In this document: positions 5,822 to 51,160 of the stretch, piece by piece
Numbering within the stretch: the first letter of the stretch is position 1
Layout of the letters: each line of letters starts with the position of its first letter
DNA from: Akkermansiaceae bacterium
GTDB taxonomy: Bacteria > Verrucomicrobiota > Verrucomicrobiia > Verrucomicrobiales > Akkermansiaceae
Direction: 5' to 3'
Assembly (NCBI GenBank): GCA_903934285.1
Contig: CAIZNN010000202.1
Span: 1-64,000 of the forward strand
DNA length: 64,000 nucleotides
Made by a program: the position numbers and the translations under genes
The notes under the pieces: generated by a model
What the model was told of the DNA's origin: nothing
Seen by the model: the letters and a program-made list of their open reading frames with translations, nothing else
Database searches by the model: none

Positions 5822-6597
5822 GGGGTGGGCTCCTTGCCATTGGTGTTTTCCAGATCGCCGCTGCGGGCGATCTTGATGAACACGTTTTCGAGCGACTGCT
5901 CGGTGGAGCGCTTGACGATGTCCGCAGGTGAGCCCTCTGCGACGATGCGGCCTTTGTGGAGGAAAATCACCCGGTCGCACACTTCCTCGATGTCGATCAT
6001 GTTGTGGGAGGTGTAGAGGATGCCGATGTTGCGCTCGCGTTGCAGGCGGCGCACCACTTTGCGCACCTTGTCGGCGATGTCGGGGTCGAGGCTGGCGGTG
6101 GGCTCATCGAGCATCAGCAACTCCGGATCATTGAGAAACGCCTTGCACAGGTTCACGCGGGTGCTTTCCCCCGCGGAGAGCTGGCCGGTGAGCCGGTCGC
6201 TGAGATGGCTGACTTCGAGCAGTTCTAACAACCCGGCGATCTTCTGCTTGGGCTGCGCCACGCCGTAAATGCGCGCGAAGACCAGCAGGTTTTGCCAGAC
6301 CTTGAGGTTGCCCGGCAGGCTGGCGTAGGACGAGGAAAAGTTGCTGCGCCGCAGAATAGCGATGCGGTGGCTGTGCAGCGGCTGGCCAAACGCATAGAGC
6401 TGGCCCGAACTCGGCAGGGTCAGGCCCAGCAGGCAATGCATCGCGGTGGTCTTGCCGGCGCCATTGGCACCCAGCAACCCGAGGACCTCGCCGCGGCGCA
6501 GCTTGAAGCTGAAGCGGTCCAACGCCTTGACGCCATCAAACTCACGGGTGAGTTCGACGGCTTCCAGCAGGGTTTCGCGAGTGTCAGGATCGGCCAT
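5818..6597 (-). CDS. ABC transporter ATP-binding protein
   Basis: A 259-residue nucleotide-binding subunit with Walker A (GANGAGKT, near residue 43), Q-loop region, a signature in the form LSAGE rather than LSGGQ, Walker B with catalytic Glu (LLMLDEPT) and the switch His (YTSHNM). It resembles the CcmA/DrrA group of ABC-2 exporter ATPases. It is first of a two-gene operon with the permease, coupled by a four-base overlap. A family A repeat lies about 170 bases upstream, in the gap to nagA. Confidence 0.9.
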   Translation of the reverse strand: MADPDTRETLLEAVELTREFDGVKALDRFSFKLRRGEVLGLLGANGAGKTTAMHCLLGLTLPSSGQLYAFGQPLHSHRIAILRRSNFSSSYASLPGNLKVWQNLLVFARIYGVAQPKQKIAGLLELLEVSHLSDRLTGQLSAGESTRVNLCKAFLNDPELLMLDEPTASLDPDIADKVRKVVRRLQRERNIGILYTSHNMIDIEEVCDRVIFLHKGRIVAEGSPADIVKRSTEQSLENVFIKIARSGDLENTNGKEPTP

Positions 6598-6770
6598 GGC
6601 AGGGACGCGGCGCGGCGCGGCGCGGTGCGGGAAGGCCAGAGTGGCGGCGGGAGCTTGGCTTTGTCAAGTGCCGGGCGGCGGCGGCGCATCTGGCGCGGAG
6701 AGACCGCTAGATGGGCGGAAAACCGGGTGCCTGCGCAGTGGCAGTCCTGTGGCTGGTCATTGGCACAAGA

Positions 6771-6818
6771 GTGTGCGGCAGGATGCCGCACACAGCCGGC
6801 GGGACGCCGGCGCTCCCC
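6771..6818 (+). repeat. Family A double-hairpin repeat, copy A1
   Basis: Two adjacent perfect palindromes, GTGTGCGGC/GCCGCACAC around AGGAT and GCCGGC/GCCGGC around GGGAC, are followed by GCTCCCC. The same design recurs at 17767, 27647 and 55694. This copy is 60 bases past the nagA stop and could serve as a 3-prime hairpin for that gene. Confidence 0.8.
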
Positions 6819-6878
6819 AGTGCGCGGGCGGGTTCGTTAGGGATGTCAACTTGGCTGGCGATATGGGACCGGACCGGC

Positions 6879-8018
6879 TCAGCGTTCGGTGCCATCGACG
6901 AGGGTTTTCCAAACGGAGAAATCCGGTTCGAGGATGACGAGGTCGGCGCAGTAGCCGGGCTCGAGCTTGCCCACGCCGTGGAGGCCGAGCGAGCGTGCCT
7001 GGTTCCAGGAGGTGGTCTTGACGAGTTGATGCAGCGGCAGCGGGATGAGCGTGGCGATGTTGCGCAGCCCCTCGTTGAAACGCAGGGCGGAGCCGGCCAG
7101 CGCGCCGCCCTCCTTGAGGCGGGCGGCACCGTCTTTGACCACCACGGCGAGGCCGCCAAGGGTGGTTTCGCCCGCCCCGATCCACGACGCCGCCATCGAA
7201 TCGGTGATCAGCATGAGCCGCTCGATGGGCACCAGCTTGAACACCAGCTTGAGCATGTCCGGACACAGGTGAATGGTGTCGCAGATGAGTTCGAGCATCA
7301 GCGCGGCATCGGACAGGCCGGCGCCGACCACGCCGATTTCGCGGTGGTGCAAGGGCGTCATCGCATTGCCGAAATGCGTTAGATGGGTGAGGCCGGCGGC
7401 CGTGGCGGCGGCGAGCTGTGCGGCGGTGGCGGAGGTGTGGGCGGCGGAGCTGGTGATGCCGAGGGCCTTGGCGCCAGCAATCACGTCGAGCGCGCCCGCG
7501 ACGTCCGGGGCAATCGACACGATGAGCACCTTGGCGACGGCATGAATGGCCGTGAGTTCCGCCAGCTTGGGCGGGCGCACAAACTGCGGGTTTTGGGCGC
7601 CGGCATTTTTCACGTTGATAAATGGCCCTTCGACGTGCAGGCCGGGAGTTTTACAGAACTCCGGGTTGGCAAAATACTTGGCGCACTCGGCGGCCACTTG
7701 TTCGAGTTTGGCCTGCGGTTGGGTCAGCGTGGTGGGCAGCCAGGTGGTGACCCCTTCCTGCAACTTGCGCCGGGCAATGTGCCGGATCGCCGCGAGCGAG
7801 CCGTCGCAAACGTCGTGATGATCGGCCCCGTGGGCGTGAATGTCGATGAAGCCGGGCATCGTGATGCGCCCCGCGGCATCAATGACCACATCGGCGGCGG
7901 GCCGCGGGTCGCCGGCTTGCAACAGCGCCGCGATCTTGCCGTCAGCCAGCAACAACGCACCGTTTTCAATTTCAAGGTCGGGCGATACAATCCGGGTGTT
8001 TTCGATGAGTGTCTTCAT
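6879..8018 (-). CDS. nagA: N-acetylglucosamine-6-phosphate deacetylase
   Basis: A 379-residue amidohydrolase that removes acetate from GlcNAc-6-phosphate, feeding amino sugars into glycolysis or wall recycling. Visible motifs: the HxH of the metal site (DIHAHGADHHDV, about residue 58), HVEGPF with the metal-binding Glu, AHTSA, the HFGNAMTPLHHREIG substrate loop and the ITDSM motif with the catalytic Asp. The start at 8018 (MKTLIENTRIVSPD) is chosen because family members begin here; the frame extends five codons upstream. No nagB or PTS genes are adjacent. Amino-sugar use agrees with the glycan-degrading theme of the beta-galactosidase at 31.8-35.8 kb. Confidence 0.92.
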   Translation of the reverse strand: MKTLIENTRIVSPDLEIENGALLLADGKIAALLQAGDPRPAADVVIDAAGRITMPGFIDIHAHGADHHDVCDGSLAAIRHIARRKLQEGVTTWLPTTLTQPQAKLEQVAAECAKYFANPEFCKTPGLHVEGPFINVKNAGAQNPQFVRPPKLAELTAIHAVAKVLIVSIAPDVAGALDVIAGAKALGITSSAAHTSATAAQLAAATAAGLTHLTHFGNAMTPLHHREIGVVGAGLSDAALMLELICDTIHLCPDMLKLVFKLVPIERLMLITDSMAASWIGAGETTLGGLAVVVKDGAARLKEGGALAGSALRFNEGLRNIATLIPLPLHQLVKTTSWNQARSLGLHGVGKLEPGYCADLVILEPDFSVWKTLVDGTER

Positions 8019-8069
8019 AAGCAAAAGCAGCAAAACCTAAGGAACGGCCGAAATATCAGGCAGCCGCCG

Positions 8070-8089
8070 CTGGCTGACAAGCCAGTTTT
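8070..8089 (+). terminator. Hairpin with short T-run in the nagA upstream gap
   Basis: CTGGCT and AGCCAG pair around GACA, flanked by GCCG and CGGC that can extend the stem, and TTTT follows on the plus strand. No plus-strand gene ends here, so its role is unclear. It may act as a 3-prime barrier for the minus-strand gene at 8173-9978. Confidence 0.3.
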
Positions 8090-8172
8090 GCGGCTTTATT
8101 TGTCAATTGGAGGTGGCCGCAGGTTTCATTGCCGTTTCCGCCCGCGTTTCCGCCCGCGTTTCAGCCTGCGCT

Positions 8173-9978
8173 TCAGCCGTCGGCGGCGGTTTGGGTCAGC
8201 ACCTTGTTGACCGCCCGGTAGGAGCGGACCAAGACATTGAATTCATCGCGCCAGGGCACAAAAACGGGCTTGGCCTCGTTATTGCGGCCGCGGGTGGCGC
8301 GGGCGAGGGTGCGGATGGTTAGAACCATTTCGCGGACCTCGGCTTGGAGCGGGCGGTCGCGCATTCCGGCATAACGTTCGAGGCGGTCGACTTCGCGCAG
8401 GCAACGCTCAAAGGCCTCGTTGAGGGGCTTGGTTTGGAGGGTTTCGACCGGATGGGTAGTGATCCAAACCATGGGCTGGATGGCGCAGCGCAGTTCGGCT
8501 GCCAGGATGTTGCGTGGCAGCAGGGAGGGCCGCTTGCCGGCCCCTTGCATCGCCAGCATGCGGGCGGAGGCATGGAACGGGGCGGTTTCGGCCAGGTCTT
8601 CGAGCCGCTGGCGGACAAACCGGTTGGCCACGTAGACAGCGACGGATTGGGCGCCGAGCTTGGAGCGGACTGCGTGGAAATTGGCGGTGACGGCGGCCAG
8701 GTCGGGGCTTGGGGTTTTGGCGGAGCGTGCGATGAGTTGCTGGAGGTTGGCGGCCAGCAGCACTTCGTAGTTGAGGAAAAAGCCGGAGTCTTCCATGGCC
8801 AGGATGGCTGGCAGGAACGGCTCGGCCTCCAGCGGCAGGACCAGGCGCCCGCCGCCACCATCGGTTAGGGCGCGGAGTTTGTCCCAAAACCGCGGCGGCA
8901 GCTTGAAGGAACCATCCGCCTGAATTTCGCCAATCACGGTGGCGTGTGGTTCGCAACCGGTGATGGCGGCGTGCATCAGCAGCGCCGCCGCGGCGGAAAT
9001 GGCATTGTGGTTGCGCTCGCTCAGATAGTCCGCGTTATCGCCACACCCCAAGCTCACCGCAACGCCGGCCGGCGCCTTGCCGAGTTGTTTTTCTAACGCC
9101 TTGAGCAGGGGGTCGCGGATCGATCTCAAAGGATCTGTCATGACGCCCTTGGTGGCGTCCGCCCCAAGCACAGAAACCGAGAGGAGGACCAACTTTGCCG
9201 GCCCCTCGCTGGGCTTGGCCAGCATCCGCACCGGCACCGGGCGCAGGACAAACAATTCGGTGGCTTTGTCATAGGTCCACAGCGGGGTGGTGACTGTGGC
9301 CGTGGCCAGCAACGCGGGCTTCCTGGGTGCCGGATCGTCCACCGCAACCGGCCCCGTGGGGGACTGCGGCGGGTCATTTTTGACGACCCGCTCGACCTTA
9401 TTAAACGCCTCGAGCGGCTGGACCCAACCGCCCCAGGCACCTTGCCCGCCGCTTTTCCGCAGTTCTTCGGCGCGCGGGTGTTGTGGATCGGCGATGGCCA
9501 TGACGTCGCCCAGACAAGCGGCAAGCGCACGCCCCGCACTCCCCGCCGCAGCGGTCTCCAACCACTCGAGAAGTTGCCACACCTGGGCGCGGGCCGCAGC
9601 AGCCAGTGGCTGTGCGGCGGCCGTTGGTTTGGGTTCGCCCATGCTGAAGGCTTCCAAGATGGCGCGGGCTTCCACATTGACCGGCTGCAAGGCAAGTGCG
9701 AGGGCGAGCAATTGGGCGGCGGTGCGGCGCTGGAGCGGAGTTTCGCCGCCTTGGGCTTGCGCCAGCACACCGAGTTGTTGGGAAAGACCGATCATGGTAT
9801 CCGCATCCAGCGGCAGCCGATCACGCCGAAACGCCACCCCTTCCTCCGCCGGCGCAACAAAGGACACTCCCGCCGCAGGACGCTCCGCCGCGGCTCCCGC
9901 CGGCATCGCCGACACCTGGCACGCCATGAGTAGCGCGACCCAAATGCCAAGCCGGGCTGGAATTTTCAGCAGATTCAT
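8173..9978 (-). CDS. Secreted protein with a degenerate Lon-protease-like domain
   Basis: A 601-residue protein starting MNLLKIPARLGIWVALLMAC, a good Sec signal peptide. Residues about 30-250 are Ala-rich helical sequence with a Pro-rich linker. Residues about 300-390 resemble the Lon (S16) proteolytic domain: an SAAAALLMHAAITG helix, the strand VIGEIQADGSFKLPP that parallels Lon MTGEITLRGRVLPIGG, and RLVLPLEAE like Lon TVLIPEEN. The catalytic GPSAG serine motif is not preserved, and the position of the catalytic Lys in GGLKEK appears to be Trp in RFWDKL. The C-terminal 200 residues are helical and unrecognised. It is probably a non-enzymatic exported protein. A start at 10071 is possible but would lose the signal peptide. 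Confidence 0.7.
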   Translation of the reverse strand: MNLLKIPARLGIWVALLMACQVSAMPAGAAAERPAAGVSFVAPAEEGVAFRRDRLPLDADTMIGLSQQLGVLAQAQGGETPLQRRTAAQLLALALALQPVNVEARAILEAFSMGEPKPTAAAQPLAAAARAQVWQLLEWLETAAAGSAGRALAACLGDVMAIADPQHPRAEELRKSGGQGAWGGWVQPLEAFNKVERVVKNDPPQSPTGPVAVDDPAPRKPALLATATVTTPLWTYDKATELFVLRPVPVRMLAKPSEGPAKLVLLSVSVLGADATKGVMTDPLRSIRDPLLKALEKQLGKAPAGVAVSLGCGDNADYLSERNHNAISAAAALLMHAAITGCEPHATVIGEIQADGSFKLPPRFWDKLRALTDGGGGRLVLPLEAEPFLPAILAMEDSGFFLNYEVLLAANLQQLIARSAKTPSPDLAAVTANFHAVRSKLGAQSVAVYVANRFVRQRLEDLAETAPFHASARMLAMQGAGKRPSLLPRNILAAELRCAIQPMVWITTHPVETLQTKPLNEAFERCLREVDRLERYAGMRDRPLQAEVREMVLTIRTLARATRGRNNEAKPVFVPWRDEFNVLVRSYRAVNKVLTQTAADG

Positions 9979-10472: not shown

Positions 10473-10605
10473 AGCCGCGGCCAGAGGTGGCTGCCGCGTC
10501 CTGCCGCAGGCCGTGGCTGCAGCGTCCTGCCGCGCTTGTGGTCCGCAAGGTGCCGGCCTAACCGATCCCGGGCATCTCCGGCAAGGGCCCCGCAGAAATC
10601 CGCCC

Positions 10606-12234
10606 TCACCCCGCCCGCCGGCAATTTTCACCCTGGCTCGTGAAGCACAGCGCCACGGCGGCGGTCACCACGGTGCCGGCCATGATCCGCCACGGGAACT
10701 CGATGATCGGGAACCAGGCCGGATTGTCGTAGAGGGGGTGGCCGGAAATCATTTGGGTCAGGTCGTTGGGCAGATTGCTCAAGATGGCCACCGCCACGAT
10801 CCCGGCAGTCATGGCCATGAGATTGCCGGCTTCACTGCCGCGGTGGCGGGTGAACAAGCCGACCATGAAAATGCCTAACAACGAGCCGTAGGTGTAACCG
10901 AAACTCCCGAGAATGATCCCGATGATGCTGAGGCTGGGATGGCACGCCTTGACAAAGGCGGTGGCCAGCCCGACCAAAATCAGCACCAGGGTGAAACCGA
11001 CGGTGCTGAGTTTGATGATGCGCACCCGCTGGGCGTCGTCGTTCGGCGTGCCAAACCAGCGGAAATGGAAATCGCGCGAATAACTCGTCGCCAGCGAGTT
11101 CATCGCCGTGCCGAGCGAGCCCATGGTGGTGGCCAACACCCCGGCCACCACCAGCCCGCGCAACCCGCCCGGCATCACATCGACAACGAAATACGGGAAG
11201 ATCCGCGTGCTGTCGGGTTGGCCCGCCGCCATCGGCAGATAGGGGTCGGCCACCACGTGACCGTAATACACCGCCAGCAGAATTCCGATCGTTAGCACGG
11301 CGAAGGTCACCGGGATATCGGCCAAGCCCGACAAGATGGTGGCCACGGCGCTTTGGCGTTGGTTTTTGGCGGTGAGCATCCGCTGCACCATGTCCTGATC
11401 GGTGCCGTGGGTGGCGAGCGTGACAAACAACGAGCCAAACAACGCCGCCCACACGGTGAACTCGGTTTCTAACACACTCTTGAGCTTGCCCCACGGCGTG
11501 GCCGCGGCGACCTCGCCCTCCCATTGCCACAGCCGCAGATCGTTAGGTCCGGTGAGGTGGCTCTTGGCCCCGGCCCAGCCGCCGGGGATGTGGCCGAGCA
11601 AATACCACACCGAAAACCCCAGCGCCGCAAACAACACCGCAATCTGCAACACGTCGGTCCAGATCACCGCCTTGATGCCGCCGACGGCGGTGTAGGCCGC
11701 CGTCAGCAGACTGATGAGCACCAAGGCGGCGCCGGTGAACCAGAATTGCTCCCAATTACCTAACGGCTCGCCGCGGTGGGTCTGGTTCCAGATCACCACC
11801 AGTAACAGGGTGGGCACCCACAGCCGCGAGCCGCTGGCCAGCGAGCGGGTGAGCAGGAAGATGGCGCTGGCCATGCGGCGGGTGCGCGGGCCGAAGCGGA
11901 TCTCGAGAAACTCGTAAATGCTCACCACGTTGTGCTTGTAATAGGCCGGGATGAACACCGCGCTGACCACCAGCCTGGCTAACAGATAGCCGAGCATGAG
12001 TTGGGCATAGGTGTAATTGCGCAGCCGGAACCCTTCGCCCGGCGAGCCGAAAAACGTGCCGGCGCTGATTTCCGAGGCCAGGATCGAGGCCAGCACCGCC
12101 CACCACGGAATCGAGCGGCCGCCCAACGCGAAATCCGCCACGCTGCGGTTGCGCCGGCTGCAATACACCCCGATCCACACGATCACTGCAAAGTACGCCC
12201 CGATGATGGCGAGGTCCAATCCGTAATCCGACAT
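10606..12234 (-). CDS. Sodium:solute symporter (SSS family)
   Basis: A 542-residue membrane protein with about 13 hydrophobic helices. It starts outside with MSDYGLDLAIIGAYFAVIVW and shows the SSS core: the unwound first core helix around ADFALGGRSIPWWAVLASIL, ASEISAGTFFGSPGEGF, and helices with VGGIKAVIWTDVLQ, which match the GGxxAVxxTD signature of SSS transporters (SGLT/PutP/NanT group). It imports a small organic solute, such as a sugar, sialic acid, amino acid or myo-inositol, with sodium. Substrate cannot be set from sequence. An in-frame start at 12276 exists, but 12234 gives the usual N-terminus. Confidence 0.9.
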   Translation of the reverse strand: MSDYGLDLAIIGAYFAVIVWIGVYCSRRNRSVADFALGGRSIPWWAVLASILASEISAGTFFGSPGEGFRLRNYTYAQLMLGYLLARLVVSAVFIPAYYKHNVVSIYEFLEIRFGPRTRRMASAIFLLTRSLASGSRLWVPTLLLVVIWNQTHRGEPLGNWEQFWFTGAALVLISLLTAAYTAVGGIKAVIWTDVLQIAVLFAALGFSVWYLLGHIPGGWAGAKSHLTGPNDLRLWQWEGEVAAATPWGKLKSVLETEFTVWAALFGSLFVTLATHGTDQDMVQRMLTAKNQRQSAVATILSGLADIPVTFAVLTIGILLAVYYGHVVADPYLPMAAGQPDSTRIFPYFVVDVMPGGLRGLVVAGVLATTMGSLGTAMNSLATSYSRDFHFRWFGTPNDDAQRVRIIKLSTVGFTLVLILVGLATAFVKACHPSLSIIGIILGSFGYTYGSLLGIFMVGLFTRHRGSEAGNLMAMTAGIVAVAILSNLPNDLTQMISGHPLYDNPAWFPIIEFPWRIMAGTVVTAAVALCFTSQGENCRRAG

Positions 12235-36357: not shown

Positions 36358-38505
36358 CTATCTTCCCGACCGGCGTTCGCGGGAGTCCTCGTCGCGCTTC
36401 TTCGTTTCCTCCTGCTGGCGCTGGCGGGCTTCTTCGGCGCCGCGCTGCCGTTGTTGCTCGGCTTGTTGGGCGCGTTGTTGGTTGGCCTCCTCGGCCTGGC
36501 GTTGACGGGCTTGTTCCTGCTGGCGCTGGCGGGCATCCTCGGCGGCGCGCTGCCGTTGTTGGTTGGCTTCCTCGGCTTGGCGCTGCAATTGTTCCTGCTG
36601 GCGCTGGCGGGCATCCTCTAGGGCGCGCTGGCGTTGAGCTTCGGCTTGTTGGTCCTTTTGTTGCTTTGCCGTGTCGGCCTGGCGTTGGCGGGCATCCTCA
36701 AGGGCACGCTGGCGCTGGGCCTCGGCCTGTTGGTCCTTTTGTTGCTTTGCGGCTTCGGCTTGCCGCTGGCGGGTTTCGTCAAGGGCACGCTGGCGTTGGG
36801 CCTCGGCTTGTTGGTCCTTTTGTTGCTTTGCCGTGTCGTCCCGGCGTTGGCGGGTTTCGTCAAGGGCACGCTGGCGTTGGGCTTCGGCTTGTTGGTCCTT
36901 TTGTTGCTTTGCCGTGTCGTCCCGGCGTTGGCGGGTTTCGTCAAGGGCACGCTGGCGTTGGGCTTCGGCCTGCTGGTCCTTTTGTTGCTTTGCCGTGTCG
37001 TCCCGGCGCTGGCGGGTTTCGTCAGCGGTGCGTCCCCGTTGGGCTTCAGCCTGTTGGTCCTTTTGTTGGTTGGCGGCCTCGTCCCGGCGTTGGCGGGCGT
37101 CGCCAGCGGTGCGTCCCCGTTGGGCTTCGGCTTGTTGGTCCTTTTGTTGGTTGGCCTCCAACACTTGTGTGCGGCGTTGGCGGAAAGCGTCGCGGCCGCC
37201 GAGTTCGGTCATCGCCTGGTCGGCTTGCAACCGGTCTTGCTCGCGTTTCTGACGGAAATGACTGACGACCTCTTGGTCCAGCGGTTTGGCCCGTTCGATG
37301 GCGACGTCCTGGAGTTGCCCGCGGACGCGGGTAGGACGCAGCGCGGCGTTCCAATTGGCATGGATGGCGGGAGCGGCGATGGTGAGTTGGTTGCCTGACC
37401 GCTGCGGGCGCATCGCCAGGGGGTCGCGATCCGGGCGCTGGTGGTGGTTGAGATTGAGTTGATAGTACGGGGCGGGGCGGCCCAGGGAGCGGCAGATATC
37501 TTGATAGCGCGGGCCACCGACAAACACGTTGCGCTCGCGGCAGCGGATGTTGGTGATATTGGTGGTGTGCTGCCAAAACTCGGGATTCTGGGCGACGGGC
37601 AAGCAATGGCGCCGGATCGGGCTGGAAAAATGATTGATGGCCACAAAGTTGAACCATCCGGCGCTGATGCCGAAGCGGGTCTCGACCGAGGCGTCCCAGG
37701 TGCAATCGCGCCAGCCGAGGGTTTCCGGGGGCAGCGGCGCCCAGCCGATGTGGCTGCCGCTTTCGCGCCAACACACCCAGGCCGGTGCCCATTGGTCGCC
37801 GGGCACCCAGATCCAGCCGCGGCCGCGCAGCAGCGCCCAGCGCCCGTAATGGTAACAGGCCCAGCCGAAGGGCTCGTTAGAGATCCAGGTCCAGCCGTGG
37901 TCGGTGCAAACCCAGGTGCCGTCCACGTAGGGGCGCCAGCCGACGGTGCGCACCACGGCGGGTTGCCAGACGTAGCCGTAGTCCGGGGACTCGAACCAGG
38001 AACCATACGAGGCCAGCCCATCATAAAACGTGCCGTAGTCGGTCACCGGGAGGGTGTCGGCGGGCGGGGTGTCGGCCTCCGGGATGGCTTCGCGGCCGGC
38101 CAGTTCGAGTTCGCGGCCGCTGAGAAGTTGCTCGCGCTGTTGCAAGTCCTGTTGTTGGTCTTCGAGGGCGGTGGCGCGGCCTTCGAGTTTGCCCTCGCGG
38201 TTGGCGAGTTCCTGTTCGCGCACGGCGAGGGCTTGCTGTTTGGCCGCGGCTTCCGCGCCCTTCTCCTGTTCCAAGGCGGCTCGTTCGTCTTCGATGCGCA
38301 TGCGTTCGCGCTCGATGGCGTCGCGCTCACTGGCGAGGAGTTGGTCGGCGAGTTGGCGCTCGAGGAGTTGTTTTTGTTCGAGGGCCTCGCGGTGCTGGCG
38401 TTCCAGCTCGGCAAGTTTCTTGGCAACGTCAGTGTTGGATTTGTCGCAACCGGCGACGACAACTATGGCAAACCCGGCAAGCAGCAGCAGCAACGACTTT
38501 TTCAT
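36358..38505 (-). CDS. YXWGXW/DUF6600-like lipoprotein with coiled-coil and 27-residue repeats
   Basis: A 715-residue protein. Lipoprotein signal with AIVVVAGC near residue 20. Residues 25-150 are a charged coiled coil (LAELERQHREALEQKQLLER). Residues about 155-330 are Trp/Tyr-rich with repeats such as YGSWFESPDYGYVWQP, WRPYVDGTWVCTDHGWTWIS and EPFGWACYHYGRW, the DUF6600/YXWGXW type. Residues about 460-715 are Gln/Arg/Glu-rich, with seven units of a 27-residue repeat containing QQKDQQAEAQR. Outer-membrane-anchored with an extended helical rod is inferred. Function unknown; such proteins are frequent in Verrucomicrobiota and Deltaproteobacteria. Confidence 0.8.
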   Translation of the reverse strand: MKKSLLLLLAGFAIVVVAGCDKSNTDVAKKLAELERQHREALEQKQLLERQLADQLLASERDAIERERMRIEDERAALEQEKGAEAAAKQQALAVREQELANREGKLEGRATALEDQQQDLQQREQLLSGRELELAGREAIPEADTPPADTLPVTDYGTFYDGLASYGSWFESPDYGYVWQPAVVRTVGWRPYVDGTWVCTDHGWTWISNEPFGWACYHYGRWALLRGRGWIWVPGDQWAPAWVCWRESGSHIGWAPLPPETLGWRDCTWDASVETRFGISAGWFNFVAINHFSSPIRRHCLPVAQNPEFWQHTTNITNIRCRERNVFVGGPRYQDICRSLGRPAPYYQLNLNHHQRPDRDPLAMRPQRSGNQLTIAAPAIHANWNAALRPTRVRGQLQDVAIERAKPLDQEVVSHFRQKREQDRLQADQAMTELGGRDAFRQRRTQVLEANQQKDQQAEAQRGRTAGDARQRRDEAANQQKDQQAEAQRGRTADETRQRRDDTAKQQKDQQAEAQRQRALDETRQRRDDTAKQQKDQQAEAQRQRALDETRQRRDDTAKQQKDQQAEAQRQRALDETRQRQAEAAKQQKDQQAEAQRQRALEDARQRQADTAKQQKDQQAEAQRQRALEDARQRQQEQLQRQAEEANQQRQRAAEDARQRQQEQARQRQAEEANQQRAQQAEQQRQRGAEEARQRQQEETKKRDEDSRERRSGR
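36610..37165. repeat. 81-bp tandem repeat within the lipoprotein gene
   Basis: Seven 81-bp units encode the 27-residue QQKDQQAEAQR repeat. The three central units are nearly identical and the edge units are diverged, which indicates recent central duplication. Base composition is as in the rest of the gene. Confidence 0.88.
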
Positions 38506-39253: not shown

Positions 39254-39913
39254 TCAGGGGGCGGCCGCCGGACCAGTTAGATCGGACGGATCGGACGGAT
39301 CGGACGGATCGGACGGATCGGACGGATCGGACGGATCAGACGGATCAGACGGATCGGACGGATCGGACGGATCGGACGGATCGGACGGATCGGCGGATGG
39401 GCGGTCGTTGGCTTCGAGGAATTGCAGGACTTCTTGTTGGAGGGCATCCACCTGGTCGAGGGGGATGTCCGGATCCTTGACGATATAGACTTCGCCGGTT
39501 TTGCGGTTTTCGTAAATGCGTAGAATGCCGGTGGGAGTGCGCTGGGTATCGGTCTCGCGCAAGATCCGCTTGCGTTCGAGCATGACGGCAAGGATGTAGC
39601 GGGTGTTTTCGGTGTGGTCCTGGTCATCTTCCACCAAGCGGCGGAGGATGTCTTCGGGGGGTTCCTTTTCGACTTGCCGGGGCTTGTCGCCACCCGGGGC
39701 GCTGTAGCTGGTGCGCCACGACGAGAACGCCGGCGCGGCGGTCGGCGGCAAGGCGTGCCACGCCTCCACACAGTAATCGCGGCGCAGGTAGCCGCTGGAT
39801 TCCGGATCCGGAAACAAGGCGGTGATGATCGGTTCGCCCGCAACAAACGGACGTTGGGACGCGGCGCACTCGCGGCCGCGCGCGCGGATGTGCCAGGATT
39901 CTGCTAGAGCCAT
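39254..39913 (-). CDS. Conserved hypothetical protein with Asp-Pro-Ser tandem tail
   Basis: A 219-residue cytoplasmic protein. Residues 1-75 hold ALAESWHIRARGRECAASQR, ITALFPDPESSGYLRRDYCV and EAWHAL. Residues 90-150 are helical (EDILRRLVEDDQDHTENTRY, LAVMLERKRILRE). I have the impression that proteins of this kind are common in Verrucomicrobiota, but I know no function. The tail is about twelve Asp-Pro-Ser repeats encoded by a 9-bp tandem array and ends LTGPAAAP. It lies five bases after the LptF/G-like gene, in the same direction. Confidence 0.7.
   Translation of the reverse strand: MALAESWHIRARGRECAASQRPFVAGEPIITALFPDPESSGYLRRDYCVEAWHALPPTAAPAFSSWRTSYSAPGGDKPRQVEKEPPEDILRRLVEDDQDHTENTRYILAVMLERKRILRETDTQRTPTGILRIYENRKTGEVYIVKDPDIPLDQVDALQQEVLQFLEANDRPSADPSDPSDPSDPSDPSDPSDPSDPSDPSDPSDPSDPSDLTGPAAAP
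39283..39392. repeat. 9-bp tandem repeat encoding the DPS tail
   Basis: About twelve copies of ATCGGACGG, two of them with ATCAGACGG, are read on the minus strand as Asp-Pro-Ser. Unit length is a multiple of three, so copy changes keep the frame. Confidence 0.92.
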
Positions 39914-45148: not shown

Positions 45149-45229
45149 TCAAGCGGCAGCGGCATTGGGTTTGAAGGCCCGGTGTTCATAGCCGGCCGGG
45201 GCCGGCGGCAAGCCGGTAATCACCGGGCT
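45149..45229 (-). pseudogene. Fragment similar to the C-terminus of the CAP-domain secreted protein
   Basis: On the minus strand the frame reads VITGLPPAPAGYEHRAFKPN, then four Ala and a stop. The intact gene at 48437-51160 has TTGLPLAPAGYEYRTFKLDD near its end. The match covers about 20 residues, with nucleotide similarity through CATAGCCGGCCGGGGC. It looks like a relic of a related secreted-protein gene on the other side of the helicase. Confidence 0.6.
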
Positions 45230-45259: not shown

Positions 45260-45340
45260 CGGGCAGGCATGCCACCAATGGCCCGCGAGAAATCCATCCA
45301 TCACGTCAAGAACGTTCTCTACCTGAGGCCACTCCACTGG
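45260..45340. repeat. Direct repeat E, left copy
   Basis: About 81 bases starting CGGGCAGGCATGCCACCAAT and ending GAGGCCACTCCACTGG. Roughly 90 percent identical to 47984-48063, with one single-base indel. The two copies bracket the helicase-exonuclease gene in the same orientation. Confidence 0.9.
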
Positions 45341-45455
45341 TCTTCTGTGCCCCATGCGCCGGCAGGACGCCGCCCACGCCGCGCAAGCGGCGGAAACTTT
45401 CCCAACGCGGCGCTTGCGTTGGCGGCGGACTTGCTGATAGGTTCACAATCACACG

Positions 45456-47885
45456 ATGAGCTATCCCAACGAGCAACAGCAAGCGGTGCTGCGGCAGCTT
45501 TATGGCACGCTGCTGGTGCTGGCTCCGGCTGGCACCGGCAAGACGCGGATCATGGCCAACCGTCTGGCGGCGGTCATTGCGGATGGAATGGCGCCCGGCA
45601 GCACCCTTGGGGTCACCTTCACCAATCGCGCCGCGGAGCAGATGCGCATAGCCGTTAGGGATGCCTGTGGCGCCGTCGCCACGGACTGCCGCATCCAGAC
45701 GTTTCACAGCCTGTGCGCATGGATGCTGCGCATGGAAGCGCGCGATCTCGGGCTGCCAGCCGATTTCGTCATCTACGACGAACAGGACAGCATCGACTTG
45801 CTGCGGGATTGCCTCGCCGGCACCGGCATCGGCATCAGCCCGGACGCCGCTTTCTGGCAACTCTCGCAAATCAAATCCGACTGCCCGGCCGAATGCCTGG
45901 CTCTAGCAGAAATCCCGCCGCTCAACCTGAGCGGCCTTGCCGAGCCCTATCGCAAGGCGCTGCGCACCTATCACGCACATCTCGCCGAAAGGCACGCGCT
46001 GGACTTTCCCGATCTGCTGTATCGCACCCGCGCGATGCTTGCCACCCTGCCGGATAAACGCGAGAAGTGGTCCAACCGGTTCGCGTGGATCCAGATGGAC
46101 GAGGTGCAGGACACCCATCTTGCCGAATATGAGGTGATCCGTCTGTTAGCCACGCAAGCCACCGGCATCGCGTTTTTCGGCGACCTCGACCAGACCATTT
46201 ACGAATGGCGCGGCTCGAAACCCGACGCCGTCATGCGGCGCGTCAGGGCGGATTTCGGCCCGGTCAGCGAGCTGCCGCTGCTGGACAATTATCGCGCGAC
46301 GAAGTCCCTGCTGCGGGTGGCCGACCGCCATGCCGGCACCTTTGCCGATCGCCGCACCCGGATCCGGCCGGCGTCATCCCTGCCGGAGGGCATAGCCCCG
46401 GAATGCGAGCGTGCTGCAAATGCCGCTGCCGAGGCCGAATGGATTGCCTCCCGTCTGCAGCGCGTCCTGGCGGACCCCGAGCCGGGCAGGATCGGCATTC
46501 TCACCCGCACCCACAAACGCTCGGAGTGCATTTCCCGCGCCCTCTCACAGAGCGACATCCCCCATCTAACCGTCGAGCAGTTCGACTTCTTCCGGCGGCA
46601 GGAAATCAAGGACTTGCTGGCACGGCTCCGGCTCTTGCTGAATCCTTCCGACAGCGGTTCGCTGCAACGCCTCACCCAGCGCCCGGCATCCGGCATTGGC
46701 GCCGCCACCCTGCACAAACTCTGGATCGAAGGGCAGCAGTGCGGACTGCGCATCACCGACCTCGCGCAACTCCGGTCACACCACCACGGTGAACCGTTCC
46801 GCGTGTTGTTAGATGCGCTCGCGCATGGCACGGTAGTGGTGTTTGATGTCGAAACCACCGGCCTCTCAGCAACGGACGACGAGGTGATCGACCTCGGCGC
46901 GGTGAAGCTCGTCGGCGGCCGCCCTGTCGCGGAATTCGATGCGTTGCTGCGCCCGAGCCGGCCGCTGGGCGAGTCCGCCGCAATTCACGGCATCAGTGAG
47001 GAAACATTGTTGAAAGATGGGCGGGACCCAACAGAAGTGTTGCGCGAGTTCGGCAGATTCGCCGACGGCGCGGTGCTGGTCGGCCACAACGTCGGTTTCG
47101 ACCTGGCGATGATCCGCGCCCATGCCGCGCGGCTGGGGGTGCCCCTGCCAACCGCGGCCTGGGATGACACTCTCGACCTCGCGCGGCGCTTTCTGCGCCT
47201 CGAGCGCCACGATCTGACAAGCGTGAGCCGCCATCTGGGCACCCGCTCCGTGCCGTCCCACCGTGCGCTCGCCGATGCGCGGCCCACCGCCGAAGTGCTG
47301 ATGCTCCTGGCTGGCGAACTCGCGGCAGGCACCCGGGCCCGCAAGGAACTCATCGCCCGCCACGGCAGCCTGTTCCATCCGCTCGCCGAACAACTCGAGG
47401 CCTGGCGCGGGCTGGCCACGACGCTGCGCCCGGCCGCGCTGTGCGGGCGGATCCTGGATGAATCCGGCCTCCTCGGGCATTACAGTGGCGATACCCAGCG
47501 CCTCGCCAACCTCGAGCGCTTCGTCCAATACTTCGTCCGTCACGACGAACCGGCCCGGGCGCCGGCAGATATGTTAGGAGAACTCACCCGCAGGGTTGCC
47601 CTCTCCCGCAACCTCGATTTCCTCGCGGCGGATGACCACAGCATCCCCATCCTGACCGTCCACCAGTCCAAGGGCCTCGAGTTCGACACCGTCTTTGTCG
47701 CCGGGCTGACCGAAGACGAGTTCCCCAGCTACTACGCCAAGAAGGATGGCAAGCTGGAGGAGGAAAAGCGCCTCTTTTACGTCGCCATCACCCGCGCCAA
47801 GCGCCACCTCATCCTCAGCTCACACGCGACCAATGACATGGGTTTTGAAAAGCCGCCTAGCAGTTTTCTGGCCCATCTCATCTAG
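45456..47885 (+). CDS. UvrD/PcrA-type SF1 helicase with internal DEDDh exonuclease domain
   Basis: An 809-residue protein. SF1A helicase motifs: I APAGTGKT (Lys29), Ia TFTNRAAEQM, II MDEVQD (Gln in place of the usual second acidic-core Ser), III FFGDLDQTIYEWRG, IV LDNYRAT, V LTVHQSKGLEFD, VI RLFYVAITRAKRH. Between the halves of the second RecA domain lies a DnaQ-like 3-prime exonuclease: Exo I FDVETTG (Asp464, Glu466), Exo II HNVGFD (Asp549), Exo III HRALADA (His602, Asp607). All DEDDh residues are present, so both activities should work. It probably unwinds and trims DNA in repair, replication restart or defence. It is a single gene flanked by direct repeats E. Confidence 0.93.
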   Translation: MSYPNEQQQAVLRQLYGTLLVLAPAGTGKTRIMANRLAAVIADGMAPGSTLGVTFTNRAAEQMRIAVRDACGAVATDCRIQTFHSLCAWMLRMEARDLGLPADFVIYDEQDSIDLLRDCLAGTGIGISPDAAFWQLSQIKSDCPAECLALAEIPPLNLSGLAEPYRKALRTYHAHLAERHALDFPDLLYRTRAMLATLPDKREKWSNRFAWIQMDEVQDTHLAEYEVIRLLATQATGIAFFGDLDQTIYEWRGSKPDAVMRRVRADFGPVSELPLLDNYRATKSLLRVADRHAGTFADRRTRIRPASSLPEGIAPECERAANAAAEAEWIASRLQRVLADPEPGRIGILTRTHKRSECISRALSQSDIPHLTVEQFDFFRRQEIKDLLARLRLLLNPSDSGSLQRLTQRPASGIGAATLHKLWIEGQQCGLRITDLAQLRSHHHGEPFRVLLDALAHGTVVVFDVETTGLSATDDEVIDLGAVKLVGGRPVAEFDALLRPSRPLGESAAIHGISEETLLKDGRDPTEVLREFGRFADGAVLVGHNVGFDLAMIRAHAARLGVPLPTAAWDDTLDLARRFLRLERHDLTSVSRHLGTRSVPSHRALADARPTAEVLMLLAGELAAGTRARKELIARHGSLFHPLAEQLEAWRGLATTLRPAALCGRILDESGLLGHYSGDTQRLANLERFVQYFVRHDEPARAPADMLGELTRRVALSRNLDFLAADDHSIPILTVHQSKGLEFDTVFVAGLTEDEFPSYYAKKDGKLEEEKRLFYVAITRAKRHLILSSHATNDMGFEKPPSSFLAHLI

Positions 47886-47983
47886 CTCGCTGCTATTAGG
47901 AAGACCGGGTGTGACACGGGTTTCTTGAGTGCACATCGACGAGCCGTTTGGTGCCGCAGTTGCGCACCCATTCGAAATACCCG

Positions 47984-48063
47984 GCGGGCAGGATGCCACC
48001 AATGTCCCGCGAGAAATCCATCCCTCGCGTCAAGAACGTTCTCCACAAGAGGCCACTCCACTA
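47984..48063. repeat. Direct repeat E, right copy
   Basis: Matches 45260-45340 in the same orientation with about eight differences. On the minus strand both copies keep an open frame containing VENVLD and DGFLAGHWWH, so the unit may derive from coding sequence. Confidence 0.9.
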
Positions 48064-48267
48064 GTTTTAAAGATTGAATTTGGAATTCGTCAGCAACCGG
48101 TGTGTGCCACCACCCGCCCCGTCCCGGCCTTGTCACCCCCGCAGCCAGCACGCCACCAAGGCCCAGAACCCGAGTCGGCCAAAAAGCGCCCGCGCCCTGG
48201 CCAGGCTTCACACGCCCAAAAACCAGCCTCAAAAAAAGTCAAAAATAACTCTTGATTCGATCTGATA

Positions 48268-48337: not shown

Positions 48338-48436
48338 CACATTCGGTGTTGCAAGGACTCTGGTGGCGGGACGCCACCGGCAACGGCCCGCCGCGAGACG
48401 CGGCGGCCACGCAATTGCACACTCAAACAGCACGGC

Positions 48437-51160
48437 TCAAGGCGCTGCCGTGACCCGCACGCGGAGGAAGCCTTTGTCAGGCGCGCCCGCCGCGTCGTCG
48501 AGTTTGAAGGTCCGGTATTCATAGCCGGCCGGGGCAAGCGGCAAGCCGGTGGTTAGCGGGTCCACCACGACCACCGGGTGGGTGAAACTGTCCGGATCGG
48601 TGGCGCCCTGGATGGTGTAGGTGACCCCATCCTGGGTGGCCGCTGGTGCCGGGGTGCCGCTGAAGGCCGGGGTGCCCGCGCGCACCGCGACGGTCAGCAA
48701 CAGGGTGGGCGCGCCGCCGGGGGCCGCCGAGGATGTTAGATCGTACACCTTGGCGCGGCCGCCGGCAGCGGACGGGTCGCCGCCGAGGGCGAACTCGAGG
48801 GCATTGGCCTGGCCGTCGTGGTCGGGATCGGCCGCGGGGCCGACCACATTCGGATCGGTGACGGCGGGAAAGTATGAGTTCATCCAAGTCACCAGCGCGG
48901 AACCCGTATAGCTGGTGGCGGCGATTGGACTATCCGATTTGCCGACTTTTTTGGCGTAGGCGGTGAGGGTGAGGGTGGAGCCGTCGACAGGCACGCTGAA
49001 GCCGCCCGCCGGGCTGGTGGCGCATTGCTCGGCACCGCCGTTGAGGCGGTAGTAAATCGTCGAGTTGCTTTCACTGGTGATGGTGATGGACTGCCCGGGG
49101 GCAGGCGCGGCGCCCGCCGGGGCGAACACCGGCAGGGATGTTAGCTCCGCCGTGCTCAGCACGAGCGCTTTGAGCGGGCCATAGGGCATCCAGCGGTTGC
49201 CCAATTTGGTGCGCATGCGCAGGCGCAAGGCCAGATTGTTAGTCAGGGTGATCCCGGCGCTGGCGCTGTTGAGCACAAAGCTGGTGGCGGTGGCCGCCAG
49301 CGTGTTGGTTTGCAGCAAGCCCAGCCACGGGCAGTTGGTGGTGGTGATGTCATCGAGGAAAATGCCGGTGGGAATGGTGGTGTAGTCAAAGCCATTGTGG
49401 GATTGATCGGCATAAAACCCCATGCCCGGCGCCACCCCCAGGCGGAACCGCAGCCGCAGCGGCAGCGCCGACGCGTCCAGCGCGATGGTGGCGTTGGACG
49501 CCGCGCCATCCGCCACCCCCGTGGCATTGCCCGTAATCGCCGCGCCTTTCTGCGCCCAACTCACCCCGCCATCGCAGCTGGCTTCCACCACCAGGCTGGT
49601 GGCCGGCGACATGTAGCCGCGGCGGTACTTGAAGGTCAGCGTGGCGGCGGCCCCCGGCAACACATCGCGATCCAACTCGAACGACTGGCCGGGCACCCCG
49701 TTGAGGCGGGGGTCGTACCATACCGGGAATGTTAGTCGGAACGACTTGGCACCGGTGATGGGCCCGAACCCCGCAAAGCTGGCCGTCGAGCGGAACACAT
49801 AACTCGAGGCGGTGGTGGCAATGACCGCGGGCGTGGGCGAGTCCTCGGCGCCTTCCGTCCACGCCGTGGTCAGCGGCCGGAAGCAGTTGACTTCGATCGC
49901 CTCGGCTTTGGAGGGCGGGCAGATCTGATAGGTGGCGGGCGCGGGGATTTGCGGCGAGGCGGGGCCGAATATGGATTGATCGGAGGTCAGCAGGTTCGGA
50001 TTGATCAGGGTCACCGCATAGGTGTACGAGTCCGGCACGCCACAGCCGGTGATCCCGCCAACGGTGATATGGTAGCGGGTATCGGCAGTCACCGTGGTGG
50101 CGGCCTGCGCGTCGGGCACTTGCCACACCAAACACGGATCACCATAACTCCCGTTCCTGGCTTGAATCACCACCGCCACCGCCACCCCGGCCGCCGTGGT
50201 CATCGTCACACTCGCCGTGTCAAACCCGGCCCCCGGATAACTCAGCGACCACAGCGCCGAGTTCAATGCCGCCGGAAAATACCCCGCCGCCGGATAGGCC
50301 ACAAAGCGCGGTGTCACAGCCGCCACTTCGCCGGCTTTGGGCACCACATAGAGGACGTTGGTGGGCGGCCGCACCGTGTCGGTGGCCGGGTCGTATGCGC
50401 CCGGGGTGTCGCCCGTTGCGAAGTCGGTGGCTGGTGGATAGAGTGCCCAGCGGCGGTGGCCCACTGGCAGGTTAGAATCGCCGGTGGCGTTGAGGGCGTT
50501 CTCGTTCAGATAGGAATCCACCGCGGCCGGCCCATAATAGCCGAACGCGAGGCTGCCGTGATGATTGGCGTTCCATGCCGCGGGGGTCCACGCCACGCAG
50601 TTGGCCTGCAGCGGGGTGTGGCTGATGGCCGCGGTGGCATCGCCCAAGGGTGGATAGATCGTCGCGCCGACGCTGCAGCCATAGGTGCGGATGATCATGT
50701 AGGCCGCGCGCTGGGCGGCGGCGGCCTTGGTGACCGCCGCCGCCAGCGGCGGGCTGGAGGCCGGGCTGTAGAGATTGGTCGGGTCGCTCGCGTCGATCAA
50801 TACGCTGGCCCCGCTGTTGAGGTGGGCCACGGCCGGAACCTGGCACAACGCACGGAAAAAATTCAAGCGCCGCTCCACATCCGTGACGAACGCGGCGGCC
50901 GTGGTGCCCTCCGCGTTGGTGTAGGGATCGGCCGCAGTGTAATTGCCGCTCCACCCGTGGCGGCCCTGATAGCCCTCCGACGCCTGATAGACCCCGTGCC
51001 AGAACGAGACCACGTCGTTGCGGTCTTGCGCGTCGACGGTGAAATCCCCTCCGCCCGCCGGATAGGTCCCCGGCACCCACGCCACTGCCACGCCCGACCC
51101 GCCGAGGCACAGCGCCCCGAGCGCCGCCAAACCCACCTGCATGTTAGTATTTTTACGCAT
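48437..51160 (-). CDS. Secreted CAP-domain protein with CHB_HEX_C and calcium-binding tail
   Basis: A 907-residue exported protein with signal peptide (NMQVGLAALGALCLGGSGVA). Residues about 75-260 look like a CAP/SCP domain: ERRLNFFRALCQVPAV and the later NLPVGHRRWALYPP. A long beta-rich middle follows. Residues about 715-770 match the chitobiase C-terminal beta-sandwich (ITSESNSTIYYRLNGG). The end has DPDHDGQANALEFALGGDPS, a thrombospondin-type-3/dockerin-like calcium loop common in Verrucomicrobiota secretomes, and a final beta domain. Function unknown; adhesion or extracellular polymer handling is a guess. Divergent from ilvB. Confidence 0.75.
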   Translation of the reverse strand: MRKNTNMQVGLAALGALCLGGSGVAVAWVPGTYPAGGGDFTVDAQDRNDVVSFWHGVYQASEGYQGRHGWSGNYTAADPYTNAEGTTAAAFVTDVERRLNFFRALCQVPAVAHLNSGASVLIDASDPTNLYSPASSPPLAAAVTKAAAAQRAAYMIIRTYGCSVGATIYPPLGDATAAISHTPLQANCVAWTPAAWNANHHGSLAFGYYGPAAVDSYLNENALNATGDSNLPVGHRRWALYPPATDFATGDTPGAYDPATDTVRPPTNVLYVVPKAGEVAAVTPRFVAYPAAGYFPAALNSALWSLSYPGAGFDTASVTMTTAAGVAVAVVIQARNGSYGDPCLVWQVPDAQAATTVTADTRYHITVGGITGCGVPDSYTYAVTLINPNLLTSDQSIFGPASPQIPAPATYQICPPSKAEAIEVNCFRPLTTAWTEGAEDSPTPAVIATTASSYVFRSTASFAGFGPITGAKSFRLTFPVWYDPRLNGVPGQSFELDRDVLPGAAATLTFKYRRGYMSPATSLVVEASCDGGVSWAQKGAAITGNATGVADGAASNATIALDASALPLRLRFRLGVAPGMGFYADQSHNGFDYTTIPTGIFLDDITTTNCPWLGLLQTNTLAATATSFVLNSASAGITLTNNLALRLRMRTKLGNRWMPYGPLKALVLSTAELTSLPVFAPAGAAPAPGQSITITSESNSTIYYRLNGGAEQCATSPAGGFSVPVDGSTLTLTAYAKKVGKSDSPIAATSYTGSALVTWMNSYFPAVTDPNVVGPAADPDHDGQANALEFALGGDPSAAGGRAKVYDLTSSAAPGGAPTLLLTVAVRAGTPAFSGTPAPAATQDGVTYTIQGATDPDSFTHPVVVVDPLTTGLPLAPAGYEYRTFKLDDAAGAPDKGFLRVRVTAAP

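Follow-up and report, generated by a model that had tools for sequence, protein, structure and literature searches.

A single gene in a 64,000-nucleotide stretch of an Akkermansiaceae genome (positions 1 to 64,000 of contig CAIZNN010000202.1, GenBank assembly GCA_903934285.1; hereafter the window) encodes an intact UvrD/PcrA-like helicase that harbors a DEDDh exonuclease at approximately residues 456 to 621 of 809. The protein is a further member of a family already captured as the PADLOC profile RTasHel. We read it, with some confidence, as an accessory stand-alone superfamily 1A (SF1A) helicase of that family that carries a DEDDh 3'-5' exonuclease in its 2B domain and serves in repair or defense. 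A first-pass annotation of the window had further proposed that the gene moves by means of two direct repeats on either side of it, and mobility by these repeats is largely refuted below. We refer to the window genome as G000 and to the window contig as C202. The assembly consists of 282 contigs (completeness 96.88, contamination 3.42), and its fragmentation calls for caution over contig joins.

The gene is one open reading frame (ORF) with an ATG at 45456 and a stop at 47885 on the plus strand, and its product contains the Pfam domains UvrD-helicase (residues 5 to 260, 1e-54) and UvrD_C (residues 275 to 790, 7.2e-83), with RNase_T (residues 461 to 615) nested within the latter. The first-pass annotation described a complete helicase gene with SF1A motifs, and indeed all eight helicase residues checked are kept (K29, D215, E216, Q246, R252, R280, H736, and R780). 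Its placement of the four DEDDh residues and the Exo III histidine inside the helicase is equally borne out, as all five are present (D464, E466, D549, H602, and D607). The two UvrD domains and their intact motifs assign the protein to the SF1A UvrD/PcrA superfamily, and the D-x-E, D, and H-x(4)-D residues together with the fold assign the insert to the DEDDh (DnaQ) exonucleases. The protein is not an ortholog of PcrA, Rep, or UvrD by the NCBIfam equivalog cut-offs, scoring 337.1, 286.8, and 284.9 against 911.2, 951.45, and 1144.45, respectively, and further UvrD-like genes of G000 are located on contigs C188 and C66. When aligned with PcrA (1pjr) by phmmer, residues 3 to 422 correspond to PcrA residues 11 to 430 and residues 641 to 805 to PcrA residues 462 to 638, which puts the insertion point of the exonuclease between PcrA residues 430 and 462. 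We take this point to lie in domain 2B, shortly past its GIG motif, which is at residues 413 to 415 of the window protein.

Modeling with AlphaFold2 on 50 aligned family proteins gave a mean predicted local distance difference test score of 90.0 and a predicted template modeling score of 0.82, and the insert is modeled confidently. The whole model matches UvrD, Rep, and PcrA structures with Z scores of 37.2 to 39.4. The best listed match, 4c30 (Z 39.4), has a root mean square deviation (rmsd) of 7.8 over 599 residues, a large value that probably reflects the positions of the domains in the model. Residues 456 to 626 match DnaQ-type exonucleases, including 8h18 (Z 23.8, rmsd 2.1, 169 residues). 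The window protein therefore shares its helicase core and motifs with PcrA, UvrD, and Rep but differs from them in the approximately 166-residue exonuclease inside 2B and in its scores far under the equivalog cut-offs. AddA and RecB are also UvrD-like helicases joined to a nuclease, and they match the model with Z scores of 25 to 30. Their nuclease is a C-terminal RecB-type domain, in contrast to the DEDDh domain in 2B of the window protein. Structural matches to HelD, UPF1, SLFN11, and nsp13 were put down to the common helicase fold only, and matches to viral models added nothing.

Table 1. Coordinates of the helicase-exonuclease gene, its parts, and the surrounding repeats. Positions refer to the window unless a locus is named.
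Feature	Position	Strand	Basis
Helicase-exonuclease gene, 809 residues	45456..47885	+	ORF; Pfam UvrD-helicase, UvrD_C, RNase_T; PADLOC RTasHel, 546 bits over residues 4-805
Helicase part 1, residues 1-455 (motifs up to IV and first part of 2B)	45456..46820	+	phmmer alignment to PcrA 1pjr; AlphaFold2 model
Embedded DEDDh exonuclease, residues 456-621	46821..47318	+	Pfam RNase_T; PADLOC DEDDh; match to DnaQ domain 8h18
Helicase part 2, residues 622-809 (rest of 2B, motifs V and VI)	47319..47882	+	Residues 641-805 align with PcrA 462-638
Repeat D1, left copy	45269..45344	+	Repeat search of the window; own-genome copies
Repeat D1, right copy	47993..48068	+	Repeat search of the window; own-genome copies
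Relic like the 3' end of a CAP-type ORF (repeat D2, left)	45156..45227	-	82% to 48489-48560; matches the tail of the G087 CAP ortholog
Two-hairpin element, copy of a genus-wide repeat, ~0.5 kb downstream of the gene	48353..48411	.	Element searches of genus loci
Two-hairpin elements at other genus loci	L037:5880-5936; L051:10138-10185, 10665-10725; L053:2769-2818; L056:3847-3895; L040:8051-8103		

The assignment to RTasHel (PDLC03802, labeled DRT) spans residues 4 to 805 of the protein and positions 6 to 667 of the 675 in the profile. The profile thus covers the whole protein, embedded exonuclease included, and it also fits all eight other family proteins tried. The isolated exonuclease fragment matches both PADLOC DEDDh (1e-36) and RTasHel positions 399 to 511, and the corresponding fragment of the cyanobacterial locus L066 matches positions 398 to 514, indicating that the embedded exonuclease is a feature of the RTasHel family.

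To place the protein among its relatives, we aligned the best 80 of 434 relatives from a genome-contig scan together with three plasmid loci. As the 80 were picked by similarity to proteins with the helicase-exonuclease architecture, the resulting 83-protein alignment shows the upkeep of the exonuclease within the family and not the frequency of the architecture. These best 80 come from Cyanobacteria, Acidobacteriota, Bacillota, Planctomycetota, Verrucomicrobiota, Kapaibacteria, Ignavibacteriota, and others. The DEDDh residues are kept wherever the region is present, two Akkermansiaceae copies excepted: D464 and E466 in 82 of the 83 proteins (one gap at a contig end), D549 in 79 (one valine, in G026, and three gaps, from a deletion in G001 and two contig ends), and H602 and D607 in 80 (three gaps at contig ends). 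A family tree, made from the helicase columns by a quick method with a simple model and long branches flagged, was used for broad grouping only. Its rows group mostly by phylum, and the window protein falls with Akkermansiaceae beside Planctomycetota and unclassified rows (99 SH-aLRT), apart from Cyanobacteria. It shares 38 to 52% identity (best segment) with the cyanobacterial and planctomycete members listed.

The family is patchily distributed. A strong match (E <= 1e-120) is present in 2 of 288 genomes of a phylum sample, G000 included, and a match at E <= 1e-150 in 12 of 121 genomes of the family of one acidobacterial locus, that locus included; generic UvrD genes can reach 5.7e-111. Viral contigs contain no match to the window protein. 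At least 80% of the query is covered in 1 of 169 matching phage records (27% identity, in two pieces) and in 5 of 1,796 matching plasmid records.

Within the genus, pieces of the gene at 65% identity or more are found in 9 of 73 genomes, G000 counted in both numbers. The carriers are G000, G075 (87%), G066 (87%), G026 (73%), G001 (72%), and G074, where the gene is spread over two contigs; G075 is a 12.6-Mb assembly with 6% contamination, and G066 is 76% complete. Partial copies occur in G087 and G025, both cut by contig ends, and in G085, which retains residues 1 to 83 with a stop. Additional short fragments are found in G013 and at another place in G001.

Among G000, G075, and G066, the three closest full copies, the ratio of nonsynonymous to synonymous substitution rates (dN/dS) is 0.15 to 0.22 for the helicase parts and 0.15 to 0.16 for the exonuclease, a pattern that shows purifying selection on both domains. 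Two other copies have damaged exonucleases with an open helicase frame: G001 has lost residues ~480 to 568 in frame (L038, which is G001:C13:51000-63039; ORF at 6416-8575), and G026 has D549 changed to valine (L037, which is G026:C55:12000-29099; ORF at 6497-8920). Between these two genomes, dN/dS is 0.68 for the exonuclease remnant, of which few codons are left, 0.25 for the N-terminal helicase part, and 0.53 for the C-terminal helicase part. Both loci also carry a second 3'-end piece of the gene 2.2 to 2.5 kb behind the main copy (L038:11025-11255 in G001 and L037:11154-11248 in G026), with PIN and HicA genes in between in G001 and DUF4062 and Schlafen AlbA_2 genes in G026. At L041:7139-7450 (G001:C1), an open miniature of 103 codons joins the start, a middle piece, and a 3'-end piece of the gene.

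The codon usage comparison suggested by the first-pass annotation gives no foreign signature, as the gene equals its neighbors: its third-position G+C content is 0.794 and its codon adaptation to neighboring genes 0.649, compared with 0.797 and 0.649 for the adjacent ROK gene. Synonymous divergence (dS) of the gene is 0.45 to G075 (other genes, 0.46 to 0.84), 0.34 to G087 (0.40 to 0.61), 0.38 to G066 (ROK, 0.78), and 1.09 to G026 (ROK, 0.94). By dS, the gene appears to be as old as the compared genes or somewhat younger. Native codon usage and dS values like or below those of other genes make a recent arrival from afar unlikely, and the gene may have been exchanged or relocated within the genus. 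We therefore read the gene as patchily kept and often decaying, with no recent arrival.

A UG35 or UG14 reverse transcriptase (RT) is present at 15 of the 83 loci. Each of these belongs to the 26 cyanobacterial rows, of which 25 fall in one clade, L118 being the other. The RT queries were pieces of one UG35 and one UG14 RT and are blind to other RT types, and contig ends truncate several loci. UG35 lies directly upstream in six loci (L070, L072, L075, L083, L087, and L099) and downstream in seven (L069, L073, L074, L076, L080, L081, and L085, the RT being in pieces in L074 and L076), and UG14 lies downstream in two (L066 and L078). PADLOC names them RT_UG35 (1,233 and 1,262 bits in two examples) and RT_UG14 (696 bits). 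In place of an RT, two further cyanobacterial loci have a C-5 cytosine methyltransferase upstream (L079:7008-7970 and L089:7008-7970), which ends 16 bp before the helicase-exonuclease ORF. Gabija genes lie downstream of the helicase-exonuclease gene in L135.

The window gene differs from these RTasHel members in having no RT partner. With no RT beside it, the locus is not a DRT system, and with no GajA match among the ten main flanking genes, it is not a Gabija system either. GajB of Gabija is a UvrD-like helicase of a defense system as well, and the best GajB profile scores 261.7 bits on the window protein, but this match is in two stretches, the best at residues 5 to 409. The polA gene of the window matches PADLOC RTasPolA (120.6 bits, with a weak DEDDh match) and was taken as an ordinary PolA. 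Could the RT be encoded elsewhere in the genome and act in trans as part of a DRT system? G000 has matches to the RT domain RVT_1 on contigs C110, C56, and C98, but none on C202, and those three are known as RVT_1 matches only. Among the ten genus genomes searched, no RVT_1 match shares a contig with a helicase gene or relic, and G066, within its 76% completeness, carries the gene yet has no RVT_1 match at all. An RT in trans is accordingly highly improbable.

The first-pass suggestion of a repair or defense nuclease is made plausible by the RTasHel score and by the operon-like cyanobacterial pairs with UG35 and UG14. We give repair and defense about equal weight. Defense is favored by the patchy distribution and by the RT and methyltransferase pairs, and repair by the ordinary neighborhood of the window gene, by clpP and lon near some Bacillota members, and by the parallel with ExoDinG. 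That the protein is a stand-alone anti-phage enzyme, the helicase-nuclease part of DRT systems working without an RT, is a tentative, narrower proposal. It draws on the RTasHel fit, on the RT and methyltransferase pairs, and on genus copies located near HicA, ParE, PIN, DUF4062, and Schlafen AlbA_2 genes. Yet these toxin-antitoxin neighbors are raw sightings with no background rate set against them, a UG35- or UG14-like RT was not found in 68 of the 83 loci, and neither an RT on the contig nor a defense match beside the gene accompanies the window copy.

ExoDinG is the closest studied parallel that we found. It combines a helicase and a 3'-5' DEDDh exonuclease in one chain, and its exonuclease fold matches that of the window protein (9ii8; Z 23.1, rmsd 2.4, 179 residues). 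It differs in being a superfamily 2, 5'-3' helicase with an N-terminal exonuclease, and crosslink resistance in Staphylococcus aureus is reported to require both activities of the enzyme (PMC12345164 and PMC11981726). The window protein, with its SF1 UvrD domains and internal exonuclease as defined by Pfam, is not itself an ExoDinG. It is possible, though doubtful as a complete account, that the protein is a host DNA repair enzyme of this kind, in which both activities clear blocked 3' ends or crosslinks and which has no role in defense. The ExoDinG phenotype (PMC12345164), the position of the window gene among metabolic genes, and purifying selection on both domains agree with such a role. 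Patchy presence in three sampled groups, together with relics, would be unusual for core repair, and the RTasHel family with its cyanobacterial RT partners also speaks against repair alone.

Several observations weigh against our preferred reading of an accessory helicase-nuclease for repair or defense flanked by incidental repeats. PADLOC found no defense match among the ten main flanking genes beyond polA, which matched polymerase-type models. The clpP and lon genes near some Bacillota loci fit a housekeeping role. The exonuclease is damaged in two of the five Akkermansiaceae ORFs compared, and the open helicase frames that accompany this damage suggest that it may be dispensable there. Finally, a two-hairpin element, described below, is found less than 0.8 kb from the gene or its relic in 6 of 12 genus loci.

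The direct repeats around the gene, which we call D1, are as first described: the annotated ~80 bp, ~90% identity, and ~2.7-kb spacing were measured as 76 nt, 89%, and 2,724 bp, in the same orientation. A 38-nt D1 pattern matches the window twice, compared with a mean of 0.00 over 100 shuffles, so the repeat is not due to chance. Over 45282-45319 and 48006-48043, the repeat contains a perfect palindrome (AGAACGTTCT), and its right copy has a possible CGCGAG/CTCGCG stem-loop. An ORF over the right copy has no Pfam match, and the idea of D1 as a coding relic was dropped. Likewise, as annotated, no transposase or integrase is near, with none among the flanking genes identified from 36.3 to 56.7 kb, where small ORFs were only partly scanned.

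The proposal that D1 bounds a unit in which the gene came or still moves, whether as a composite element or a recombination cassette, is largely refuted, on the terms that the first-pass annotation itself set. A search of all 73 genus genomes at E <= 0.001 found D1 in G000 alone and in none of the 72 others, gene carriers included; a search of 37 genomes had the same outcome. The orthologs in G075, G066, G026, and G001 (87, 87, 73, and 72%) lie in other contexts without D1, and D1 therefore does not travel with the gene in these four carriers whose flanks were compared. Conversely, a third close copy (89%) is on the minus strand of G000 contig C259 (799-873), which has no helicase match, and is flanked there by mazG and a DUF6088-domain ORF. 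Diverged copies are on C158 (74%) and C28 (70%), and C48 and C256 carry short partial copies. No empty site, with a single D1 and without the helicase gene, was found. Set against the direct orientation of the two copies and the signs of rearrangement at the site, the absence of D1 elsewhere in the genus, the native codon usage, the old divergence, and the lack of an identified transposase make a repeat-bounded unit very improbable.

The site itself has been rearranged. In G087, the gene order is PEPCK, rhomboid, mazG, CAP, ilvB, ilvN, and polA (the domains of the first three were verified there), and G075 has the same order as far as ilvN. In both, mazG and the CAP ortholog overlap by 17 bp, and the helicase gene is on other contigs. 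In G000, C259 carries PEPCK, rhomboid, and mazG, and the window carries CAP to polA, indicating that the mazG-CAP junction is broken. The three close D1 copies surround this junction, with D1 and CAP-tail-like sequence on both sides (window 48437-51160 and C259:799-1842, which is L042). A second repeat pair, D2 (45156-45227 and 48489-48560, 82%), resembles the 3' end of the CAP-like ORF at 48437-51160, and part of this similarity recurs on C259 beside D1; the name CAP is our presumption from the sequence of the ORF, which has no Pfam match. We read the site as rearranged with a small dispersed repeat and no helicase transposon, and D1 is best read as a lineage-specific dispersed repeat outside the working of the enzyme.

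Similarity of the window to G075 or G066 DNA (45445-47866 or 45456-47866, respectively) covers the reading frame and almost nothing more. The flanks differ, with two exceptions: the two-hairpin element, and a 77-bp stretch (window 47910-47985) that has 77% DNA identity to L051:5527-5600, where a DUF488 ORF starts ~2 kb past the G075 gene. A possible DUF488 relic behind the window gene was set aside, as tblastn with DUF488 proteins gives no match in the window. On the left, comparison of the L141 ROK gene with seven other genus loci reveals no common flanking DNA except a 136-bp match in L144, and left-side synteny is therefore uninformative.

The two-hairpin element raises the separate question of whether a REP-like repeat accompanied the relocation or rearrangement of gene copies in the genus. 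Searching 30 genus stretches with window 48353-48411 at E <= 0.001 gave five other matches, each less than 1 kb from a helicase copy or relic (L053, 151 bp; L037, 589 bp; L056, 783 bp; L051, 589 bp; L040, 777 bp), and none in ~361 kb outside the 1-kb flanks of the gene or relics, which total ~19.5 kb. The L051 element, used as its own query, detects an additional one 53 bp from the gene. The position of the gene also varies among genomes. On the other hand, the query was chosen after it had been seen beside copies, and the comparison sequence is mostly core genes, so that a preference for accessory or intergenic sites could explain the enrichment. Weaker or related elements occur far from the gene (window 10487-10531, L141:8033-8077, and L038:11975-12019), and 6 of the 12 gene or relic loci have no element nearby. 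Joint relocation is thus unlikely, and the recurrence near gene copies is a lead, with no result on mobility.

The identified genes flanking the helicase-exonuclease gene from 36.3 to 56.7 kb encode DUF6600, winged-helix, LptF/G, LpxA-like, beta-eliminating lyase, and ROK proteins, followed by the CAP-like ORF, ilvB, ilvN, and polA. The C-terminal part of the DUF6600 protein (36358-38505) contains a long series of charged, Q/A/R-rich repeat units, and an ORF at 39254-39913 has Asp-Pro-Ser repeats near its end that are encoded by a simple DNA repeat.

How might such an enzyme work? SF1A helicases move 3' to 5' on single-stranded DNA, DEDDh exonucleases remove nucleotides from 3' ends, and domain 2B of PcrA and UvrD sits over the duplex ahead and controls the activity of PcrA, UvrD, and Rep. 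The enzyme would load on single-stranded DNA, run 3' to 5' on the loaded strand, and open the duplex. Running in this direction, it would meet 3' ends of the opposite strand, which the exonuclease held in 2B could trim or degrade; trimming of 3' ends near the fork is suggested by analogy with these known activities. Possible substrates would be blocked or damaged 3' ends and invading or reversed strands in repair and phage or reverse-transcribed DNA in defense. We speculate that the family is an old self-contained helicase-nuclease module, in which the 2B swivel could gate 3'-end trimming at the fork and which works alone in most phyla and is coupled to UG35 and UG14 RTs or methyltransferases in cyanobacteria, with some Akkermansiaceae having lost the exonuclease and kept the helicase.

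In the open-access literature, where several of our queries were narrow and outside which most subscription papers lie, we found no paper describing a DEDDh domain embedded in a UvrD-type helicase. If our reading is true, a 3'-5' exonuclease built into 2B would couple the opening of strands to the removal of 3' ends within a single moving part, and an exonuclease-bearing 2B would be a direct way to probe what this domain does. The same protein, free-standing in some bacteria and paired with two kinds of defense RT in others, would show what a helicase-nuclease adds to DRT systems.

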